A stretch of DNA of 47,002 bases from a virus. Numbering within the stretch: position 1 is the first letter of the stretch; every line of letters starts with the position of its first letter. The notes beneath the pieces are model-generated. The model did no database searches. It had not been told where the DNA came from and saw only the letters and a program-made list of their open reading frames with translations. Location of the stretch: positions 1 to 47,002 of the IMG/VR virus record IMGVR_UViG_3300031566_000076; one strand, 5' to 3'. The translations under genes and the position numbers were made by a program. Below are positions 7,872 through 29,567 of the stretch, piece after piece.

Positions 7872-8153
7872 TCATTTTTTTATTTCAGTTAGCAATTTCT
7901 TTAAATCAGGTTTCAAACAATAAGGAGTGTCAAAGTTTTTGTAATATGTCTTTTGAGGGTTTAAAAACCCCGTTTCTCCGCTTAAGAGATCACAAAGATC
8001 GCATTTGATACATTGTTGTACTTTTAGATCGCCGGTTAAAATATGATGCATTAAAACGCCATTTTCGAGGTCTAATACAATCGTGTTTAATTCAACAATA
8101 AACTCTCCTTTTTGTTTGATAATTTTTATTATCTTGTTGTATGTTCTTTTCAT
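7872..8153 (-). CDS. hypothetical protein, 93 aa, downstream of repeat element copy 1
   Basis: Unknown family. Contains CIKCDLCDLLSGETGF (about residues 48-63), a cysteine cluster that could bind metal. Its ATG (8151-8153) follows the 235-bp repeated element at 8155-8396 with almost no gap, in the same arrangement as the genes starting at 19376 and 29329. That makes this gene one of three likely sharing a control mechanism. Confidence 0.6.
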   Translation of the reverse strand: MKRTYNKIIKIIKQKGEFIVELNTIVLDLENGVLMHHILTGDLKVQQCIKCDLCDLLSGETGFLNPQKTYYKNFDTPYCLKPDLKKLLTEIKK

Positions 8154-8154
8154 T

Positions 8155-8396
8155 TTACTACAATTGTTACAATTAGTTTATGTATATTTGTGTTATTCTG
8201 CATGAACTGATAATCAGAGAGTTGCGTATCTTTAATAAATTCAATATTCTGAAACAACAAAAAATATCATCAATCTTCATAAGTTGCATTATATCAGTTT
8301 GTTATATCTATGTTTAACTCGCTTAGAATTACTTTTGTGTATAATTGTATGTATTCATTTCAAATATGCAATTGTAAGAGGGTTAAGGCTCGTTTC
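8155..8396 (-). repeat. dispersed ~235-bp structured leader element, copy 1
   Basis: Noncoding. It is similar along its whole length to 19380-19620 and 29331-29567. It carries, from the plus-strand left, an AATTGTTACAATT palindrome (8162-8174), CATGAACTGATAATCAG, CTTCATAAGTTGCA, and a stem made by AACTCGCTTAGAATT and AATTGTAAGAGGGTT enclosing about 40 bases. Copy 1 is the most diverged, but the two stem arms have changed together (AATT/AATT and a G-U pair), suggesting the fold is kept. On the minus strand it ends directly at the ATG of the 93-aa gene. Confidence 0.75.
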
Positions 8397-8733: not shown

Positions 8734-8734
8734 G

Positions 8735-8944
8735 TTAGCAGTAATGCTGTGTATTGCCACAATTAGGGCATTCAAGAGTATCATCGCTTGAAGAATAATG
8801 GAAATACTCGCCTGTTTCCCAATCTTCCATACATTTAGCAATCTGCCCCTCAAATTCACAACTGTCGCATTTGTAAGTGCCAGTGAAAGCACTACCGCTA
8901 ACAAGTTGTATAGCCGATTGCCGAGTTTGTTGTTTATTCATCAT
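8735..8944 (-). CDS. small zinc-ribbon protein, 69 aa, cassette-type gene
   Basis: Two CxxC pairs, CDSC (about residue 26) and CPNC (about 59), with intervening aromatic and acidic residues, form a zinc ribbon; the C-terminus is QHYC. Its stop lies inside TGCTAAC, and it is preceded by the CTAAC-containing hairpin DNA at 8976-9030. Both features resemble the plus-strand cassettes at 12-17 kb. Function unknown. Confidence 0.6.
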   Translation of the reverse strand: MMNKQQTRQSAIQLVSGSAFTGTYKCDSCEFEGQIAKCMEDWETGEYFHYSSSDDTLECPNCGNTQHYC

Positions 8945-8975
8945 TTCTACTTTTAATTAAATTACTACTAAATTG

Positions 8976-9030
8976 ACAGGTTAGTGCTTTTAAGTCGGCA
9001 ACCTGCCATACAACCGACCGTTAGCCACAA
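8976..9030 (-). other. attC-like remnant between two minus-strand cassette genes
   Basis: On the minus strand the upstream gene's stop lies in GGCTAACGG, followed by a short stem (GTCGG/CCGAC) and then a second CACTAACC. This is the same layout as GCCTAACGG at 12645 and CGCTAAC at 16650 on the plus strand. It lacks a full matching GTTRRR partner, so it is probably a partial or fused site. Confidence 0.4.
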
Positions 9031-9449
9031 TTGGCTGATAAAAAAGCTTTAGCTTCTTTGTAGCCATTGCCATGTCTTAAAGGTTTGTCTATCTGTTCTA
9101 AATGTTCGTAGAAATCAGCCAACAGTTCACGTTGTTGGCTAACATGCGATATAGAAAATACTTTTACTAGCGTTTCTGCTAATTTGTAAGTTGTAGTTTC
9201 ATAATCTGCACCTTCCCTTAATTCTCGTACATACCCACTTAACAACATTATTGTTTTCATTTCGGGGTTGTTTAATGCTTCTTGTTCTGTCATAATATTT
9301 TTAGTTTTTAAATCCGTAAAAGTACTTTCCATATCGCTGTCCGCAAAACGTTCGCTTCGCAACGCTAACACTGCATATATTGCATTTGCCTTCACTTTCA
9401 TTAGCTGCTTGCCATCCCGCATGAAATGAATCAGCAGCAAATTGTTCAT
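9021..9449 (-). CDS. hypothetical protein, 142 aa, with a true Shine-Dalgarno site
   Basis: The frame is open to a TTG at 9480, but AAGGAG lies just before the ATG at 9447-9449, so I start there. A canonical SD is rare in this genome and in Bacteroidota, and base use is more GC-rich than in neighbouring genes, both pointing to foreign origin. Helical protein with no family recognised. The stop codon sits in GGCTAACGG, the cassette-end motif. Confidence 0.55.
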   Translation of the reverse strand: MNNLLLIHFMRDGKQLMKVKANAIYAVLALRSERFADSDMESTFTDLKTKNIMTEQEALNNPEMKTIMLLSGYVRELREGADYETTTYKLAETLVKVFSISHVSQQRELLADFYEHLEQIDKPLRHGNGYKEAKAFLSANCG

Positions 9450-12275: not shown

Positions 12276-12650
12276 ATGAAAAGATTTACCCAAAGAATAC
12301 GAAAGGCATTTGATATATTTTTTGTTAGGCGTATGTACGTTATTACACAAATTGATAATGGCGTAAAATATTACTACAAGGGTGCAGATAGTAAATGGAC
12401 ACCAATTTTTGAAGGGGCTAAACACTATAAAAAGAAACCTGACTTTGATTGGATAAGTGAACTTTGGCATAAGGTAGAAGAGTATGACGCATTGTTAGGC
12501 GTAGTTGCTTCTGAAAAAGAACAAAAGGTATTGATTTGTAATAACTGTAAAAATATATGGATAGCACCAAAAGACAGATGTGATTGTGGATGCACTATAC
12601 TAACAGAAACGCACCCAAGCAACTATAAGTATGCTCGCAATTACGCCTAA
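12276..12650 (+). CDS. cassette gene with C-terminal zinc ribbon, 124 aa
   Basis: Basic N-terminus (MKRFTQRIRKAFDIFFVRR), middle acidic helix, then CNNC (about residue 89) and CDCGC (about 105-109), forming a zinc knuckle. Family not recognised. Its stop codon TAA lies within GCCTAACGG (12645-12653), a perfect RYYYAAC core, as seen for integron cassettes whose genes end in their attC site. Confidence 0.6.
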   Translation: MKRFTQRIRKAFDIFFVRRMYVITQIDNGVKYYYKGADSKWTPIFEGAKHYKKKPDFDWISELWHKVEEYDALLGVVASEKEQKVLICNNCKNIWIAPKDRCDCGCTILTETHPSNYKYARNYA

Positions 12651-12678
12651 CGGCTAAGGTATGCAGCGTTTGAGCGTT
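12645..12678 (+). other. attC-like site, probably truncated
   Basis: GCCTAAC at 12645-12651 matches RYYYAAC exactly and contains the stop of the upstream gene. The following CGGC...GCAGCGTTTGAG can fold back weakly, and GTTTGAG is a poor GTTRRRY. I read it as a short or eroded site. Confidence 0.45.
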
Positions 12679-12712
12679 TTAATTAATTAATACAAACTTA
12701 AAATAATATATT

Positions 12713-13000
12713 ATGATTGACAAATACGAACTAATTGAATGTTTAGAATGGTTACAAGATAAAGGCTTTATTCAGTTTAAAGAAAGTGCAAAAGTTGATA
12801 TGGTTGAAGAATATTTAAGTAATTGCGGTGGAGAAAATGCTGTATTACCTATTGTTATAAACCGTACATACAAATGTGATAGATGTGGTACTGTTTATAT
12901 ACCTGTAAGTGGAATTGTAAATGCAGGATGCTGCACTGCACCAGTAACGCATAGAACTAGCGGACTTTGTGGTGGTCAATTAACAGAAATTACTAGCTAA
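12713..13000 (+). CDS. cassette gene with zinc-binding C-terminus, 95 aa
   Basis: The N-terminal helical half begins MIDKYELIECLEWLQDKGFI. The C-terminal half has CDRC (about residue 59), CC (about 76) and LCGG, consistent with a zinc ribbon. No family recognised. The 70 bases to the next gene hold only a weak AATGTT/AACATT repeat. Confidence 0.6.
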   Translation: MIDKYELIECLEWLQDKGFIQFKESAKVDMVEEYLSNCGGENAVLPIVINRTYKCDRCGTVYIPVSGIVNAGCCTAPVTHRTSGLCGGQLTEITS

Positions 13001-13070
13001 GTATGGTTTATAATGTTGAATAAAATATGGGATGGAAAATTAAGAACATTAACTAAATAACAGATGAATT

Positions 13071-13289
13071 ATGGAAAATGTAGAAAAGAAAAAAATTACA
13101 AAAAAAGAATTAATTGATTTCTATAATAAAATGAAATCTAACGTAATCGAACAAGTTGGTTATATATGGTTACCCTCGATTGACGGATTTAAGATATTTG
13201 AAATACCTGCAGAAAGACTTGATCTGTACTTAAAGGCGGAAAGCATGCATAACCAATTATCAATTAATGAAATCAAAGAGAGTTCTTAA
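13071..13289 (+). CDS. cassette gene, 72 aa
   Basis: Starts MENVEKKKITKKELIDFYNK; helical and amphipathic, with IWLPSIDGFKIFEIP in the middle. No family recognised. It is followed directly by the nested hairpin at 13293-13365, part of a family shared with two other cassettes. Confidence 0.55.
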   Translation: MENVEKKKITKKELIDFYNKMKSNVIEQVGYIWLPSIDGFKIFEIPAERLDLYLKAESMHNQLSINEIKESS

Positions 13290-13292
13290 TTT

Positions 13293-13365
13293 TATTTCCT
13301 ATGATTTTTAGTTAAGATTTGTCGCTTGTAAAAGCACTAATTTACAGATAACTAAGTAGGAAATA
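13293..13365 (+). repeat. cassette-end hairpin, family member 1
   Basis: TATTTCCTA (13293-13301) pairs with TAGGAAATA (13357-13365), TTAGTTA (13308-13314) with TAACTAA (13349-13355), and GCTT with AAGC (13324-13335). The bulge is asymmetric, six bases against one. It is followed by GTGCGAAGGCATAT, almost identical to the sequence after the hairpin at 15342-15416. The stem arms differ between family members while the inner TTAGTTA and outer flank are kept. Confidence 0.65.
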
Positions 13366-13428
13366 GTGCGAAGGCATATTTTATTCAACATTAAGATCAA
13401 TCGGTTTTGGAATTTAAATTTGATAATT

Positions 13429-13662
13429 ATGAAAACATTATTAGAAGCATTAAATGATGAATACAAAGAAAAATTTGCAGCCTTGTTAATAGTTGCAGAA
13501 ATGTTTGAAAAAGAAGATGAATTAATATTTAAGGAATTACTTAAAAAAGCCGCTGGCTGTAAATTGATGATTAAAGAATATGAAGCTGAATTATCAAAAT
13601 TAAATACAGGGGAGAAAGGAAGGGTGAGCGACAGCGAACAGCGAAGGAGCGCAAGCGATTGA
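13429..13662 (+). CDS. cassette gene, helical protein, 77 aa
   Basis: I use the ATG at 13429-13431, after an A/T-rich leader, rather than a distant upstream GTG. It is helical and Glu/Lys rich; the last 17 residues (GEKGRVSDSEQRRSASD) are encoded by GC-rich DNA unlike the rest, as if a new 3' end was joined. The stop TGA ends one base before the attC-like site at 13663. Confidence 0.55.
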   Translation: MKTLLEALNDEYKEKFAALLIVAEMFEKEDELIFKELLKKAAGCKLMIKEYEAELSKLNTGEKGRVSDSEQRRSASD

Positions 13663-13718
13663 TCTTAACGGATGGCAATATGTGGCGTTTTTTCTATGCC
13701 ATATATTGCGTGTTAGGT
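13663..13718 (+). other. attC-like recombination site, best example
   Basis: 56 bp. Left core TCTTAAC (13663-13669), right core GTTAGGT (13712-13718), the latter a full GTTRRRY match and able to pair with the left core. Inside, GCAATATGTGGC pairs with GCCATATATTGC with one mismatch around a T-rich loop. Spacers between core and stem are five bases on the left and two on the right. Position, directly after a stop codon, and size fit integron attC sites. Confidence 0.65.
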
Positions 13719-13772
13719 GTCTGTAAAATAAAAAAATAGGGAAGGCAATTTTTAACTTAAATATATACAAAA

Positions 13773-14306
13773 ATGAAAAAGAATTATAGAGAAATTGAAT
13801 TTGGATTTGGAAACATCGAATCTGCTGTAAAAGAATTGAAAAGCCATAAAGATTTGGTTTGTGGAACATTTAACGGACAAATATTATACTCCGATATTGA
13901 TGATATGGATTCCGCTTACAAAAAAGTAACAGGAAGCACAAAGGCTGAATTTGATGAAGCTAGAAGATTGGAAAATGCAGAATATGAACGCCAAAAGAAA
14001 GAGCATAAAGAAGCAATACCACAGTTAACTATTGAATGGATAGAAAAAGGAAATAAAATACTCGACAAGAAACACCATAAGACTTGGGCTAAATGCGTTC
14101 CAATTAGACTTGGTGATTTGTATCGAGGAATGGAATTAGGAAACTGCCTTGAAATAGTTGAGCAATTAAATAAAGGTGCTGAACTTGAAAAAGTAAAACC
14201 ACTTATAGAAGACCAAGGACACTCTGGAATGTCTTTTGGCTTAGTTTGTTCTATGGTAAAAGATTTTTGCGATAGGGGTGCTGAATTTGTTAGCTATGTA
14301 CGTTAA
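13773..14306 (+). CDS. cassette gene, conserved-looking unknown, 177 aa
   Basis: Largest unknown of the array. Charged helical centre (about 55-90, EARRLENAEYERQKKEHKEA) and a C-terminal part with VPIRLGDLYRGMELGNCLEI and GHSGMSFGLVCSMVKDFCDRG, which has the look of a conserved globular domain found in mobile elements. I cannot name the family. No catalytic triad is evident. Confidence 0.6.
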   Translation: MKKNYREIEFGFGNIESAVKELKSHKDLVCGTFNGQILYSDIDDMDSAYKKVTGSTKAEFDEARRLENAEYERQKKEHKEAIPQLTIEWIEKGNKILDKKHHKTWAKCVPIRLGDLYRGMELGNCLEIVEQLNKGAELEKVKPLIEDQGHSGMSFGLVCSMVKDFCDRGAEFVSYVR

Positions 14307-14319
14307 TCAAATGGTTTTG

Positions 14320-14372
14320 CAAAAACCAAGGTGCGGTGGGATTTTTTTATTTTATTGCACCTAATGTTTTGG
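14320..14372 (+). other. attC-like site, diverged
   Basis: CAAAAAC (14320-14326) and GTTTTGG (14366-14372) form the outer pair; AGGTGC pairs with GCACCT inside, around a T-rich loop. The core sequences depart from RYYYAAC/GTTRRRY, but the AAC...GTT order and size match the site at 13663. Confidence 0.45.
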
Positions 14373-14438
14373 AGAATAAGGGATGGTTTTTAAGCTGTAT
14401 TAGAGATGAAATTTATTGTTAAACTAAAAATAAATATT

Positions 14439-14759
14439 ATGAATTTGATAAACATTGCAGATTTAGAAAACCCGAAAACGGGAAAAACTTACAGAGAAGA
14501 AAATAATGCTAAAGTACATAAGTACAAGATTGATGATCTAATTGAAATTATAGCTTGGGATGAAGATTGTGAGTACGGAGGAATGAGACTTTACGTAATT
14601 GGTTGCGTTAGAGACTGTGACGGCACTCCACTATATGTACTTGGTAGCAAGGGCATGGAATTATATCAGAAAGCATTTGTTAAACCTGATACTTGCTATA
14701 ATTTTAATTCTTTCTCGGGTTTTGGCGAAGAAAGTTTGAAGCTAGTTAAATCTGCTTAG
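14439..14759 (+). CDS. cassette gene, 106 aa
   Basis: Start ATG at 14439-14441, after AAACTAAAAATAAAT, the A-rich leader type of this genome. Beta-rich protein with repeated short loops (DEDCEYGGMRLYVIGCVRDC) suggesting an SH3-like or other small barrel; no family recognised. It is flanked by an 18-bp inverted repeat (14361-14378 and 14884-14901), so the whole cassette sits between complementary ends. Confidence 0.6.
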   Translation: MNLINIADLENPKTGKTYREENNAKVHKYKIDDLIEIIAWDEDCEYGGMRLYVIGCVRDCDGTPLYVLGSKGMELYQKAFVKPDTCYNFNSFSGFGEESLKLVKSA

Positions 14760-14793
14760 TATCTGAATAATATTTATTCTCTATTAAATGCAG

Positions 14794-14872
14794 CTTAAAA
14801 ACTTGCCCTTGATTCTTTAGTTAGAGGTTGTGATATTTGGTAAAAACCTTTATTAGAACGCAAGTTTTTAAG
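14794..14872 (+). repeat. cassette-end hairpin, family member 2
   Basis: CTTAAAAACTTGC (14794-14806) pairs perfectly with GCAAGTTTTTAAG (14860-14872). The left arm is followed by TTGATTCTTTAGTTAGAGG and the right arm by GCGTGAAGGAGTAT, both alignable with members at 13293 and 15342, although the arms themselves are different. Confidence 0.65.
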
Positions 14873-14897
14873 GCGTGAAGGAGTATTCTCCAAAACA

Positions 14898-14983
14898 TTA
14901 GAGTTAATGATATTAGGGTTTTTGTGTGGAGGGCGAGGAAGCGGGCGAAGCCCAATTTAGGATGGGCGTATCATTAACTCTAA
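14898..14983 (+). other. palindromic intercassette site with GC-rich loop
   Basis: TTAGAGTTAATGATA (14898-14912) pairs perfectly with TATCATTAACTCTAA (14969-14983). The loop includes GGGCGAAGCCC, a stable small hairpin. It lies between the end of one cassette (CCAAAACATTAG) and the start of the next (AACATCGCAGG), where an attC is expected. It has no gene. Confidence 0.6.
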
Positions 14984-15091
14984 CATCGCAGGTTATATGA
15001 GATGTAAATTCTACAACATTGATTGATAAAAGATAAAGTAACAAATTGAATATAATTATAAATTTAGTATAAACTAAAAAATAAAAAAGCG

Positions 15092-15295
15092 ATGGAACAA
15101 AAATTATTTACAGAGATGAAGATTAATAACGGAAATACTCATATAATAGCAAGATGTCCAGATGAAGATGATGAAATGTGCATTACTATTAAGAATAGAT
15201 ATAAAGTTAATTTTAGTATGACGCTTCAGGAAGCTAAAGACTTTGCAGACTTTATAAATGCACATGTTAAAAATGCTATTGAATCTAATAAATAG
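15092..15295 (+). CDS. cassette gene, 67 aa
   Basis: Small protein, beta-rich N-terminal half (ARCPDEDDEMCITIKN) and C-terminal helix (MTLQEAKDFADFINAHVKNA). The pattern resembles short DUFs that follow 'CITI...LTxxEAxxLAxxI', but I cannot name one. It lies within an 18-bp inverted repeat (14982-14999 and 15427-15444). Confidence 0.55.
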   Translation: MEQKLFTEMKINNGNTHIIARCPDEDDEMCITIKNRYKVNFSMTLQEAKDFADFINAHVKNAIESNK

Positions 15296-15341
15296 CGGAG
15301 CGTAAGCTTTTATTTTTTATAGATTCTGAGTTGTGGAATTT

Positions 15342-15416
15342 ATGTCTTATGATAACTTAGTTAATGGTAGTTGTTAGTGGTTTGAAAAGAACGTTTCAGA
15401 TACAGTCATAAGACAT
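15342..15416 (+). repeat. cassette-end hairpin, family member 3
   Basis: ATGTCTTATGA (15342-15352) pairs perfectly with TCATAAGACAT (15406-15416). Inner left sequence TAACTTAGTTAATGG and inner right TTTCAGATACAG match the member at 13293; the flank GTGCGGAAGGCATAT follows. The 46 bases between the preceding stop and the hairpin show no gene. Confidence 0.65.
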
Positions 15417-15441
15417 GTGCGGAAGGCATATAACCTGCGAT

Positions 15442-15619
15442 GTTAAAGGTAATTGTTGTTTAGCCTTTTCGTGTGTAGGCAAAAAGGAAGGTTTAAAATT
15501 ATCATGATTAGAGTAGTTACACTACCTAAATAGCAATAAATTTAATGTCATGTATTTGGCACCATTTACTTGACAATTTTAAATAGGAAGGTTTTTAGCG
15601 TGAAACAATTACCTTTAAC
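15442..15619 (+). other. geneless palindrome-bounded segment, 178 bp
   Basis: GTTAAAGGTAATTGTT (15442-15457) pairs perfectly with AACAATTACCTTTAAC (15604-15619). The interior has short repeats (GCCTTTTCG...AAAAAGGAAGG; GTAGTTACACTAC at about 15511-15523) but no open frame of note. It may be the long variable loop of an attC, or a cassette without a protein gene. Confidence 0.55.
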
Positions 15620-15694
15620 GGTTAGCTTAAGTGGAGTTTGCCAACAAATACAGGAAAGATTTAAACGAGAATATTAACCAATAATTTACGAGCG

Positions 15695-15976
15695 ATGGGA
15701 AAAAGTAAGTTAATAACAGTAGATGATATTTATATTGAATTAGAATCAATTTTTGATAACTTCGAATCTGGTTATAACAGGAGAATTGCTGTTTATAAAA
15801 AATTAAATGAATTATTACCAAACTGGGAAGGGCGTGTTAGCAAAAAGAAACAAACGAGTGAGCAAATTCCATTTGAAGCGTTGTTAGGAGTTTCGTTGCC
15901 TATATGTAAAAATTGTAAAAAAACGATGAAGATTGCAGCTTATGAATGTGAATGTGGAATAGTTAGAGAAGGATAG
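15695..15976 (+). CDS. cassette gene with C-terminal zinc ribbon, 93 aa
   Basis: Helical N-terminal domain (LITVDDIYIELESIFDNFES), then CKNC (about residue 73) and CECG (about 86-89) forming a compact zinc ribbon at the end. It is one of several cassette genes here ending in such a module. It sits between GTTAGC (15621) and CCTAAC (15986), the expected cassette boundaries. Confidence 0.6.
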   Translation: MGKSKLITVDDIYIELESIFDNFESGYNRRIAVYKKLNELLPNWEGRVSKKKQTSEQIPFEALLGVSLPICKNCKKTMKIAAYECECGIVREG

Positions 15977-15984
15977 GCAATGAC

Positions 15985-16114
15985 TCCTAACGAATTATGG
16001 TATGAAAAGTTGCGGATTTAATGGTAGAACTTTTCAGCCTACAACAAAATTAAATTAGAATTACAAACCTACGGATTGCTACGCACCCGCAATTTTTTAT
16101 ACCATGTGTTAGCG
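15985..16114 (+). other. attC-like recombination site, long form
   Basis: Left core TCCTAAC (15985-15991) and right core GTTAGCG (16108-16114). ATGGTATGAAAAGTTGCGG (15997-16015) pairs with CCGCAATTTTTTATACCAT (16087-16105), 17 of 19 as Watson-Crick pairs and the other two as G-T. The spacers are again five bases left and two right, as at 13663-13718. About 70 bases of variable loop contain no gene. Confidence 0.65.
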
Positions 16115-16134
16115 TTTCGTGCATTATTAAACAT

Positions 16135-16407
16135 ATGTCAAAAGTAATAGTTAGAAAAACAATCGCGACCAATTATCAATCTGAATTAGATTATCCAATT
16201 TACTTGAATTTTCAAAACGAAGATTGTTTGGATGAATTGGTTAAAGTTGACGAAAAGTATAGAATAACCGTAAAGCATAATCATTTTGGTTTTGAAATTG
16301 ATTACTCTACAATGAACACTATATTTGAACATGACCTATGTAGTTTAACTACAAAAGAACATTTTGAGCAATTTTTAGATGAGGCAATTAAAATATTAAA
16401 CAAATGA
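16135..16407 (+). CDS. cassette gene, 90 aa
   Basis: Starts MSKVIVRKTIATNYQSELDY; acidic beta/alpha protein with no recognised family. It overlaps the next gene by four bases (ATGA), so this cassette carries a two-gene pair. Both are flanked by GTTAGCGTTTCGTGCA (16108) and TGCATGAACGCTAAC (16642). Confidence 0.55.
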   Translation: MSKVIVRKTIATNYQSELDYPIYLNFQNEDCLDELVKVDEKYRITVKHNHFGFEIDYSTMNTIFEHDLCSLTTKEHFEQFLDEAIKILNK

Positions 16408-16655
16408 AACCTGACTTTTTTCAAATAAAAAAAGGATGCTATAAAATCGGCATTAACCAATTTATATCTGGAATGGATAATAAACCAGTAGTTCGAGTAG
16501 AATGCGTAAATGATTATACCCACGCTCAGGATATAGATGACGAATGGATAGACGAACAAATTTGCGCTATGTTTACATTTAGGAATATAGATGATTATGA
16601 TTTATTTATTCAAAAGTTGCAAGATGCACGGTCGTTTCTTTTGCATGAACGCTAA
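16404..16655 (+). CDS. cassette gene, 83 aa, pairs with upstream gene
   Basis: Begins MKPDFFQIKKGCYKIGINQF. Length, acidity and the C-terminal pattern (FRNIDDYDLFIQKLQDARSFL) resemble the upstream 90-aa protein's end (FEQFLDEAIKILNK), hinting at a distant duplication or a toxin/antitoxin-like pair, but this is weak. Its TAA lies in CGCTAAC, the cassette-end core. Confidence 0.55.
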   Translation: MKPDFFQIKKGCYKIGINQFISGMDNKPVVRVECVNDYTHAQDIDDEWIDEQICAMFTFRNIDDYDLFIQKLQDARSFLLHER

Positions 16656-16703
16656 CAACGGTAAGCATAAACAACGTACGCACAGTTTAGTATAAAAGAT
16701 AAA

Positions 16704-16979
16704 TTGAAAAACAAAAATAAAAAGCGAAGCGTGGGAAAAGTTATTATAGTTTTTTTAAGCCAGTTGATTTTCGGATTCGTAAGAAACCTTAACACAAGAT
16801 ACGTATCTAAAGAAAATGTAAAATTAAGCGTGATAACTGGGTTTTTAGTAAAAACATCTTGGTTAGTAGCTACATATTTAGGAGTTTCTTCATTAATAGA
16901 AGGAAATTATATAGTAACTGCATTTTATATAATAGGTGGGGTGTTAGGTGATTATTTATCGTTTAAAATTAAAATATGA
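16704..16979 (+). CDS. multi-span membrane protein, 82-91 aa
   Basis: Either the TTG at 16704 or the GTG at 16731 is the start; no ATG is available, and the GTG follows the same AAAAAGCG-type leader as the 15092 and 15695 genes. Three hydrophobic segments (about residues 12-26, 43-63 and 70-86 of the long form) with FGFVRNLNTRYVS between the first two. No named family. It overlaps the PP-loop gene by four bases, so the two probably act together. Confidence 0.55.
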   Translation: MKNKNKKRSVGKVIIVFLSQLIFGFVRNLNTRYVSKENVKLSVITGFLVKTSWLVATYLGVSSLIEGNYIVTAFYIIGGVLGDYLSFKIKI

Positions 16980-17734
16980 AACAATTTATAAGTTTTAGTG
17001 GTGGCGTTGAAAGCTCAACGATGTGTGTTTTGTTTGGAAATAAAGCAGATGCTATATTTTGCGATACTGGTTTTGAACATGAAGAAATTTATAAAAGAAT
17101 TGATTTGGTTGAACATTGGGTTAAAAACTTTCATAGATCAGATTTTAAAATACATAGAATACAAAACGAAAAGCATGGAAGTTTAATTGACTACATAAAA
17201 GAAGCAAAGTTTTATCCAAGTTTCCAAGCTAGATATTGCACTAGGATGTTTAAAATTGAACCTATTGATAAATACCTAGAGCAATTTAAAGCCGATGGCG
17301 TTGAATTAATGATTGGTTTAAATGCTGATGAAATAGAACAAAGAACTGGAAACCACGGAAATAAAAAGTTTGTTAAATATAGCTACCCTTTAGCCGATAA
17401 TAATTTAACTAGACAGGCTTGCATAGCAATATTAAAGAAAGTTGATTTATATCCTGAATTTCCTGCTTATATGAGGCGTGGCGGTTGCGTAGGCTGTTAC
17501 TATAAAAGTATAAAAGAATATGAAGCAATGGCATTATTGAACCCAAAAGAGTTTAATATAGTACAACTTTTGGAAGAAGAGATTCAAGACATTAGAAAGG
17601 AGTATTTTAGTATAAAACAAAATATTACGATGAAACAAATAAAAGAAAATGTTTCTAATATGTTATTTAAACCAGATGATATTTATCCAATAATTAACGA
17701 TGCCACAAAATGTGGTGTATTTTGTAACCGATAA
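16976..17734 (+). CDS. PP-loop ATPase, PAPS reductase/DndC-like, 252 aa
   Basis: N-type ATP-pyrophosphatase: PP-loop SFSGGVESS (residues about 5-13), then RYCTRMFKIEP (about 87-97) and a Cys motif GGCVGCYY (about 169-176). The C-terminus has KCGVFC. The family includes PAPS/APS reductases, DndC of DNA phosphorothioation and many phage members of unknown substrate. No IscS/DndD/DndE partners are nearby, so DNA phosphorothioation is not supported. It is the best recognised enzyme of the array and is translationally coupled to a membrane protein. Confidence 0.8.
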   Translation: MKQFISFSGGVESSTMCVLFGNKADAIFCDTGFEHEEIYKRIDLVEHWVKNFHRSDFKIHRIQNEKHGSLIDYIKEAKFYPSFQARYCTRMFKIEPIDKYLEQFKADGVELMIGLNADEIEQRTGNHGNKKFVKYSYPLADNNLTRQACIAILKKVDLYPEFPAYMRRGGCVGCYYKSIKEYEAMALLNPKEFNIVQLLEEEIQDIRKEYFSIKQNITMKQIKENVSNMLFKPDDIYPIINDATKCGVFCNR

Positions 17735-19379: not shown

Positions 19380-19620
19380 ACATGTTTTACTGCAATTGTT
19401 ACATTTAGTTTATGTATATTTGTGTTATTCTGCATGAACTGATAATCAATGAGTTACGTACTTTAAGTAAACTCACAATCATCAAAATATAAAAAATCTT
19501 ATTAATCTTCATAAGTTGCACTATATTAGTTTGTTATATCAATTATTAACTCGCTTAGGATTTTGTTCGTGTATAATTGTACATATTCATTTTGAATATG
19601 CGATTCTAAGAGAGTTAAGG
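19380..19620 (-). repeat. dispersed ~235-bp structured leader element, copy 2
   Basis: Nearly the same as copy 3 (29331-29567) and clearly related to copy 1 (8155-8396). It holds the operator-like AATTGTTACATTT (19394-19406), CATGAACTGATAATCA, CTTCATAAGTTGCACTATATTAGTTTG-type blocks, and the arms AACTCGCTTAGGAT / GATTCTAAGAGAGTT enclosing about 45 bases. The right edge overlaps the stop codon of the upstream gene (19615), and the left edge meets the start of the 45-aa gene before the endolysin. Confidence 0.8.
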
Positions 19621-27785: not shown

Positions 27786-29329
27786 ATATAATCTATTAAT
27801 AAAAATCCCGCTGTCTGAGCTGGTTTTATGGTTAATATTAAATGCCTAAGTTCATTTTTTCTGTCTTCATTTATATCGGCTCTGGTCCCGAATGTTTCTC
27901 CTCCCACAAAAAAAGTTGCTCTCAAATTTATATCATCACCAAAATCAAAATCCAAATCTTTTGATTCTGATACATAATTTGCGATTTTTGTATAATCACC
28001 TATTCCTGTATTTCCATACACATTGTCACCATAATTGAAATTGCCATATAATGAAGAAATAATATTTACGATTTCGTAAATCCCTCCTCCTATATCAATT
28101 CTATTTTCATGAATAAATACATCAAATCCGGCTAATTGTAATTGACCTTGCAAATATAAATAATGTTGACGAGCCGGAATATCGCCTGGATGTTGCATTT
28201 TTCTTAAAATTGCCAATTTACGATCCGCTAAACTTAATCCAGTTTGAATATACAATCCTAAAGCACTCTCCCAATTATATGCATCTTCCTCTGTAAAATT
28301 TTCGTTGTCAGGTAAAATACTATTTAATAATCCCGTACATGTTTGCAATGCTCTGCTTTCTGATAATGCTAATCCTTCATGAAATTTAGAAAAAATATTA
28401 TTAAAATTAAACCACCACACCCTACCTGTCGGATATAATTGTTTAGTTAATTTTAATATTTGATCTTTGTATAAAGGCGTTTCTATCGTGGCAATAGCAT
28501 TTAATATTTTTACCCTAAAATTACCAGAATCAATTATAAATAATAATTCATTATCATAAATAGCATACATTGGAAAATAAAATTCATCATCTCCGCTTCC
28601 GTAACTACCGTAATCTGAAATTAAAGAGCTTGTATTATCAAAGAAAAATATTTTATTTCTAATTTTGTCAACAACCCCAAATATCTCATCATTAATATTG
28701 AAAATTCCTGTCGGATAACCAAATATAGTATCTGTAATTTTAATTATGAAAACTCCTGATATATTGAAAGTTTTTACTTTTTTATTACCAGAATCAACAA
28801 TTATTAAATCATTATTTATAACTGCTAATCCTTCTGGAAAATTTAAATTGTTGTCACCGGTTCCATAACTTCCGAAATTGCTTATAAATGTGCCATCTAT
28901 TAAATGAGTTTTTATCCTGTGATTCTGCTTGTCCGAAACATATAATTTACCATCATTATAATCAATTCCAACTGGATATTTAAAATTATTATTACCAGTT
29001 CCACTACTCCCAAATTCACTTATAAATGTGCCGTCTGTTTGATGTTTTTTTATTCTATGATTTGCGGAATCTGTAATATATAAATCAACTCCATCTGTTG
29101 TTATGCATTCGAGAAAAAAGAAATTATCATTTCCCGAACCAATACTTCCAAATTGCCTTTGATAAACTCCCGAAAAATTAAAAACCTGAATTCTATGATT
29201 TTGTTTATCAACTACAAAAAGTTCATTATTCAAAATACAACATCCCGACGGATAACTAAATTCGCCATTACCTGAACCCTGCGATCCAAAATCATTATTA
29301 TATGTTATATTTACTGAATAATCAGACAT
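27782..29329 (-). CDS. NHL-type beta-propeller fused to Mu gp48-like baseplate protein, 515 aa
   Basis: Residues about 10-280 hold six NHL-like blades with the repeat GSxGSGNxxFxYPxG...LYVxDxxNHRIKxF; residues about 290-515 match the Mu gp48/DUF2313 connector (LTKQLYPTGRVWWF, WESALGLYIQTGLSLADRKLAILRKM). In Mu gp48 links baseplate to tail fibre; here it carries a propeller that could bind sugars or a receptor. Its ATG lies directly after repeat element copy 3, unlike the tail genes around it, so it starts a separately controlled unit. Confidence 0.7.
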   Translation of the reverse strand: MSDYSVNITYNNDFGSQGSGNGEFSYPSGCCILNNELFVVDKQNHRIQVFNFSGVYQRQFGSIGSGNDNFFFLECITTDGVDLYITDSANHRIKKHQTDGTFISEFGSSGTGNNNFKYPVGIDYNDGKLYVSDKQNHRIKTHLIDGTFISNFGSYGTGDNNLNFPEGLAVINNDLIIVDSGNKKVKTFNISGVFIIKITDTIFGYPTGIFNINDEIFGVVDKIRNKIFFFDNTSSLISDYGSYGSGDDEFYFPMYAIYDNELLFIIDSGNFRVKILNAIATIETPLYKDQILKLTKQLYPTGRVWWFNFNNIFSKFHEGLALSESRALQTCTGLLNSILPDNENFTEEDAYNWESALGLYIQTGLSLADRKLAILRKMQHPGDIPARQHYLYLQGQLQLAGFDVFIHENRIDIGGGIYEIVNIISSLYGNFNYGDNVYGNTGIGDYTKIANYVSESKDLDFDFGDDINLRATFFVGGETFGTRADINEDRKNELRHLILTIKPAQTAGFLLIDYI

Positions 29330-29330
29330 G

Positions 29331-29567
29331 TTTTACTACATTTGTAACAATTAGTTTATATACATTTTCATCATTCTGTATGAACTGATAATCAGAGAGT
29401 TACGTACTTCAAATAAACTCACAATCATCAAAATACAAAAAATCTTATTAATCTTCATAAGTTGCACTATATTAGTTTGTTATATCAATTATTAACTCGC
29501 TTAGAATTTTGTTCGTGTACAATTGTGCACATTCATTTCGAATATGCGATTCTAAGAGAGTTAAGCC
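29331..29567 (-). repeat. dispersed ~235-bp structured leader element, copy 3
   Basis: Third copy, with ATTTGTAACAATT (29340-29352), TATGAACTGATAATCAG, CTTCATAAGTTGCACTAT and the arms AACTCGCTTAGAAT / ATTCTAAGAGAGTT, which pair perfectly apart from one G-A. Inside the stem lie GTGTACAATTGTGCAC (nearly self-complementary) and ATTCATTTCGAAT, giving a three-way-junction shape. The right edge overlaps the stop codon of the baseplate J gene (29561), and the left edge abuts the ATG at 29327-29329. Confidence 0.8.

Follow-up and report, generated by a model that had tools for sequence, protein, structure and literature searches.

The window analysed here is a 47,002-nt stretch of viral DNA (IMG/VR virus record IMGVR_UViG_3300031566_000076, positions 1 to 47,002) that carries tailed-phage genes for a DnaB-like helicase, tape measure, portal, protease and large terminase. 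With the terminase of Flavobacterium phage FCL-2 the large terminase shares 41% identity, and this similarity suggests that the carrier is a tailed phage of Flavobacterium type. Between leftward replication genes and leftward structural genes we find a rightward block of small ORFs at ~11.6-18.5 kb, most of which have no Pfam or PHROG match.

Three hairpins in this block (A, B and C; Table 1) had been described in an initial annotation as having perfect but mutually unrelated arms of 9-13 bases. We found all three to be present, with arms that pair within a copy only; pairing with the own partner gives −8.0 to −14.5 kcal/mol, whereas mismatched arms give +2.2 to −5.3 kcal/mol. The constant framework is also recovered, with TTAGTTA following the left arm in 3/3 hairpins and the right arm being followed by GTGCGAAGGCATAT in A, GTGCGGAAGGCATAT in C and a looser GGCGTGAAGGAGTAT in B. 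Perfect arms of at least 9 bp with loops of 40-75 nt occur 33 times in the window versus 21 in shuffles (largest 33), and those of at least 11 bp in the same loop range 5 times versus 1.75 (largest 5). Because these counts lie near the shuffle level in an AT-rich genome, the arms by themselves prove little; what is significant is the combination of own-partner pairing, recovery of B by a covariance model and a further copy in another phage. The proposal that arms change together on a fixed framework is confirmed, and the helices P1, P2 and the Y stem behave likewise.

A long-range complementarity search resolved the region at 12.2-16.7 kb into an unbroken chain of 16 consecutive segments, in which X segments, running from a TAAC/TAAT core to a GTTA/ATTA core, alternate with Y segments, running from GTTA/ATTA to TAAC/TAAT. 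Each segment is closed by its own complementary arms and every core is common to two neighbouring stems, an arrangement expected from strand exchange and not from plain RNA hairpins. Matched arms have mean energies of −25.0 (X) and −22.4 (Y) kcal/mol versus −11.9 and −10.8 kcal/mol for wrong-partner arms, and the only weak member of the chain is the first, J1-J2. Since the junctions had been placed by eye, an automatic chain finder was written as well, which returned 9 consecutive links here; of 144 control segments taken from other loci, the twelve with the best scores gave at most 3. None of the nine TAAC cores lies inside an ORF, though the array is 66% coding, stop codons fall within the core in two cases and three ORFs cross GTTA cores; as core placement was not blind to the ORFs, this comparison serves only as supporting evidence for the polarity described below.

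Table 1. Coordinates of the hairpins, double-core modules and chain segments in the window
Feature	Positions	Strand	Content
Hairpin A	13293-13365	+	9-bp arms: TATTTCCTA 13293-13301 / TAGGAAATA 13357-13365
Hairpin B	14794-14872	+	13-bp arms: CTTAAAAACTTGC 14794-14806 / GCAAGTTTTTAAG 14860-14872
Hairpin C	15342-15416	+	11-bp arms: ATGTCTTATGA 15342-15352 / TCATAAGACAT 15406-15416
Module A	13311-13393	+	core 1 (GTTA of TTAGTTA) at 13311, scaffold, H2, GTGCGAAGG, R2, core 2 13390-13393
Module B	14820-14900	+	core 1 (GTTA) at 14820, core 2 14897-14900
Module C	15360-15445	+	core 1 (GTTA) at 15360, core 2 15442-15445
Y1	12494-12651	+	zinc-ribbon-like tail of ORF 12276-12650; stop codon within core TAAC
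X2	12648-12857	+	start of ORF 12713-13000
Y2	12854-13014	+	zinc-ribbon-like tail of ORF 12713-13000
X3 (attC-like)	13011-13393	+	ORF 13071-13289 within; P1 13011-13029/13375-13393, 19 bp perfect
X3 inner arms P2	13037-13047/13282-13292	+	
Y3	13390-13669	+	arms 13390-13403/13656-13669; ORF 13429-13662
X4	13666-13715	+	short attC-like hairpin: TAAC, 5-nt spacer, stem, 2-nt spacer, GTTA
Y4	13712-14365	+	177-aa gene 13773-14306
X5 (attC-like)	14361-14901	+	ORF 14439-14759 within; P1 14361-14378/14884-14901, 18 bp perfect
Y5	14897-14984	+	no ORF; perfect arms
X6 (attC-like)	14981-15445	+	ORF 15092-15295 within; P1 14981-14999/15427-15445, 19 bp perfect
Y6	15442-15619	+	no ORF; 16-bp perfect arms
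X7	15616-15886	+	start of ORF 15695-15976
Y7	15883-15991	+	zinc-ribbon-like tail of ORF 15695-15976
X8	15988-16111	+	attC-like hairpin, no ORF
Y8	16108-16656	+	ORFs 16135-16407 and 16404-16655 (stop in core)

In five Y segments (Y1, Y2 and Y7 in Table 1, 8734-8902 in the window and 4447-4599 in contig L128) the coding sequence supplies a cysteine-rich, zinc-ribbon-like C-terminal tail whose start coincides with the GTTA core. These tails are joined in frame to unrelated N-terminal parts, from which domain shuffling through cassettes appears possible. An in-frame fusion over a recombination boundary, considered for the three zinc-ribbon-like ORFs, was abandoned, as it vanishes if TAAC cores bound the cassettes. 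The segment at 8734-8902 belongs to another small array, of Y-X-Y layout and on the minus strand (8734-9143), in which the cysteine-rich tail of ORF 8944-8735 starts at the GTTA core.

When the hairpins are placed in this chain, in each of A, B and C a whole ORF occupies the loop of an X site, whose right flank ends at the GTTA of TTAGTTA. TTAGTTA is the right core of the site and part of the repeated recombination-type core GTTARR. The X arms at core 1 are attC-like, with a core, an unpaired spacer of greater length on the left side, a long stem and a single bulged base. A module insert of 77-82 nt, measured core to core, follows the right core of the site and consists, in order, of a conserved scaffold, the hairpin right arm H2, GTGCG(G)AAGGCATAT (GTGCG(G)AAGG), R2, the second core and y2. 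H2 is the perfect complement of the site's right flank, R2 is the perfect complement of the outer left flank over 17-19 bp, core included, and y2 is complementary to the far end of the cassette over 14-16 bp in a scan tolerating a mismatch at the first core base. In hairpin A the left arm is part of the site's right flank R1 and the right arm, H2, is part of the module, and the second junction of C is exactly complementary, over 31 nt, to the sequence that joined cassette ends would create. Of the selected fold proposed in the initial annotation, the co-changing arms stand; the hairpins are not a free-standing family but a sub-module of attC-like cassette sites. Their supposed location at the 3' ends of cassettes needs correction: each hairpin comes after the gene and before the final segment of its cassette.

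In 2.7 Mb of sequence, covered on both strands, an architecture of this kind in which two arm pairs are perfect was found only at A, B and C and as the mirror image of the B/C junction. The whole-element folds have z-scores of −4.1, −6.3 and −6.0 for A, B and C, compared with −0.6 and −0.5 for controls, and the minimum-energy fold of all three elements contains P1 and P2. Additionally, summed helix energies, with loops ignored, are more favourable for a three-way junction than for the core-1 fold at all three sites. Hairpin H forms in A; in B and C it competes with an extended P2, which prevails in the minimum-energy fold, and this counts against the reading that we prefer below.

A fourth copy, D, is present in phage G002 (16439-16585). 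It is 80% identical to A over 73 nt (E 1e-10), and a longer alignment of 151 nt gives 76%. Copy D keeps the hairpin and the core-1 pairing, and a left partner for P1 is absent, which counts against an attC-like explanation. Pattern and covariance searches of IMG/VR viral contigs, GTDB contigs and phage or plasmid records returned no further module copies; the remaining inspected pattern matches were chance, mostly coding sequence, with D alone genuine. Neither model search nor BLAST found module copies in 395 genomes from the phylum to which an Ignavibacteriales genome belongs, the model search being weak and shallow, with few candidates scored per genome. A covariance model built from A, C and D recovered B as the third-best match in the window (E 0.04). 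In the three aligned rows both sides have changed in 3/8 pairs, and 16/500 shuffles did equally well. The family therefore amounts to four copies in two phages, which is too few for R-scape-grade covariation.

Other phage contigs carry similar chains, of 9 and 4 links in L142 and of 7 links in L144. Genes have, moreover, shifted position between contigs: the B gene, which lies in an X loop in the window, has homologues (88-89%) that occupy a Y segment between attC-like sites in L127/L128 and have no arms in L129, and the 177-aa gene lies in a Y segment in the window, L139, L141 and L142 and in an X loop in L144. Chains and shifted gene positions in other contigs indicate that the chain is general to a set of phages; the module, unlike the chain, is not general. 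We found no such chain in Polaribacter P12002L or Flavobacterium FCL-2, and no attC was resolved in phage TJE1. The long X/Y chains span 549-1553 and 1671-4174 in L142 and 1731-4313 in L144, where, as in B, a short Y hairpin lacking an ORF (72 and 81 nt) comes after each of two ORF-holding X loops. In phage G002 (contig L029, 2573-2920), an 18-bp AAT...ATT inverted repeat surrounds a minus-strand ORF and resembles the gene-holding X segments.

Next, we considered the polarity of the sites, scoring imperfect arm pairs without strand preference. On the gene-sense strand the window arms show G.T:A.C wobbles at 22:2 (p 4e-5), and 44 sites at seven loci in other contigs show 68:11 (p 4e-11), with a mirror bias in the X site of the minus-strand small array. 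In contrast, a classical control (the integron plus CALIN set of Shewanella phage M16-3) gave 0:7, a count based on small numbers and some weak sites, and its extra bases are all on the left arm (9 left, 0 right). Classical attC sites recombine as the bottom strand (PMC2727003), so the gene-sense bias implies that the sites are reversed relative to the genes or that they belong to another system. Judged indirectly, through the wobbles, the folding strand appears to be the gene-sense strand, opposite to that of classical integrons.

Integron cassettes and CALINs, the latter reported from virulent phages, a Polaribacter phage among them (Qi et al. 2023, PMC9892861), are likewise made of tandem small ORFs between palindromic AAC...GTT sites. 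As in integron attC, the sequence of the window sites is variable, the fold is conserved and an unpaired spacer separates core and stem. This spacer measures ~5 nt on the left and 1-3 nt on the right in the window X sites and in 20 X sites elsewhere (~5/2, versus the classical 3/3), and it is missing from the outer stems of A, B and C, unlike attC. Furthermore, the window stems extend beyond the R box in both directions, a gene may occupy the loop of a site, and three sites carry an extra module and a second core, all of which differ from integron sites. The R box GTTRRRY / RYYYAAC compares with GTTAR at most window cores, whose final base is often not a pyrimidine; GTTAGGA, GTTAGCG and GTTAAGA depart from it, and a few cores read ATTA/TAAT instead. 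Among attC sites, large ones such as VCR have a complex variable terminal structure, and their loop end can, as here, be long and branched with no conserved sequence, but the VCR terminal structure is 65 bp (PMC2727003), whereas the loops here contain an ORF of 67-106 aa. Published attC lengths are 57-142 nt (PMC2727003), compared with 124 nt for X8, 50 nt for X4 and 383, 539 and 465 nt to the second core for X3, X5 and X6. The extrahelical bases, which in attC lie on the R''-L'' arm (the 5' arm in gene sense), are on the 3' arm in X2, X3, X5, X6 and X7; the bulge side is inconsistent in other arrays, which counts against our preferred reading, and its use as a general sign of polarity was given up, as other arrays give it no support. 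A tyrosine recombinase (PF00589) was found neither in the window phage nor in five related records, while 14 control genomes were positive.

Given this architecture, we favour, with a probability of roughly 0.55, the reading that the hairpins are part of structured, attC-like putative recombination sites in an integron-like cassette array of a tailed phage. The gene-sense strand, when single-stranded, would adopt the fold of the site, and strands would be exchanged at the core by a recombinase provided in trans. The module arms, fitted to the cassette by pairing of H2 with the right flank, R2 with the left flank and y2 with the far end, would swap the attC-type fold, with its unpaired spacer and bulged base, for a fully paired three-way junction. 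Because a fully paired spacer lowers attC recombination 27-fold in VCR (PMC2727003), we infer that the module probably locks or retunes the site, which is the least certain step. Excised circles, empty sites and strain-level rearrangements were not seen, and the second contig of the window phage is identical to it across the 20 kb compared. A broader and rather unlikely proposal is that Bacteroidota-type phages carry a new, reversed-polarity class of cassette arrays, served by a recombinase acting on the gene-sense strand, in which the A-D module would be a transferable regulator or maker of sites, with arms that fit both cassette ends and switch the site between open and locked folds.

An RNA role is the chief rival, since the folded strand is also the mRNA strand. 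Under this alternative, gene-sense mRNA stems would protect, insulate or regulate each small gene, and the module would be a structured 3' UTR; the G.T (G.U) wobbles on the coding strand and folds far stabler than shuffles fit it. Nevertheless, it leaves unexplained why the same 4-nt core occurs in both neighbouring stems and why genes change from X to Y settings or back. Conserved linkers with variable stems about them, such as TTAGTTA and GTGCG(G)AAGG here, are a feature shared with Rfam-type RNAs, but the hairpins differ from Rfam families in being linked to recombination-type cores and cassette ends, and Rfam 15 covariance models gave no match better than chance with E values of up to 5 allowed. 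On this ground, known RNA families and self-splicing introns were rejected; transcription terminators were rejected as a T run is absent after the hairpins, and transposon terminal repeats as the arms differ among copies. We regard the RNA element as unlikely, though the folds may act at the RNA level.

We assign a distinctly low probability to a by-product of template switching, in which phage replication would have turned imperfect palindromes into perfect ones by copying, leaving the second core as a functionless duplicated junction. H2, R2 and y2 are indeed perfect complements where the core-1 flanks are imperfect, and the exact 31-nt junction complement of C is what such copying could leave, but the scaffold and GTGCG(G)AAGG recur at three sites and in a second phage with the same 77-82 nt spacing, and the places copied by R2 and y2 are not adjacent in the linear array. 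Ordinary classical integron cassettes (a CALIN) with standard attC sites would account for the R-box-like cores, paired arms and short ORFs, and phage CALINs have been reported (PMC9892861); this alternative is very improbable given wobble polarity opposite to the classical control, spacers of ~5/2 in place of 3/3, many R boxes that break GTTRRRY, and three sites of 383-539 nt with a gene inside, against the published range (PMC2727003). Chance likeness of AT-rich hairpins can practically be discounted: although 9-bp arms at these spacings are about as frequent in shuffles, every helix set shows the matched/mismatched contrast, a fourth copy exists in another phage, the architecture has zero background and control sequences do not reproduce the chain.

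In the open literature we found no description of reversed-polarity sites, of genes inside attC loops or of a double-core module. The origin of integron cassettes and their sites is an unsettled question, to which junctions complementary to both neighbours, reversed polarity and in-site genes would add a testable, related but distinct phage cassette system. Sites this large exceed the published attC range, and searches built on that range could miss them. The module arms, being fitted to their own cassette ends, may preserve in their sequence the way in which sites are switched or made.

Finally, directly after the array lies a PAPS-reductase-like gene (16976-17734), and a similarly annotated gene is found near the FCL-2 terminase. 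The leftward gene blocks of the window contain three largely intergenic repeats of ~240 nt that are 85-91% identical (8153-8396, 19380-19619 and 29326-29565). Parts of these repeats are also present in phage G002, and they are possibly shared promoters or leaders.
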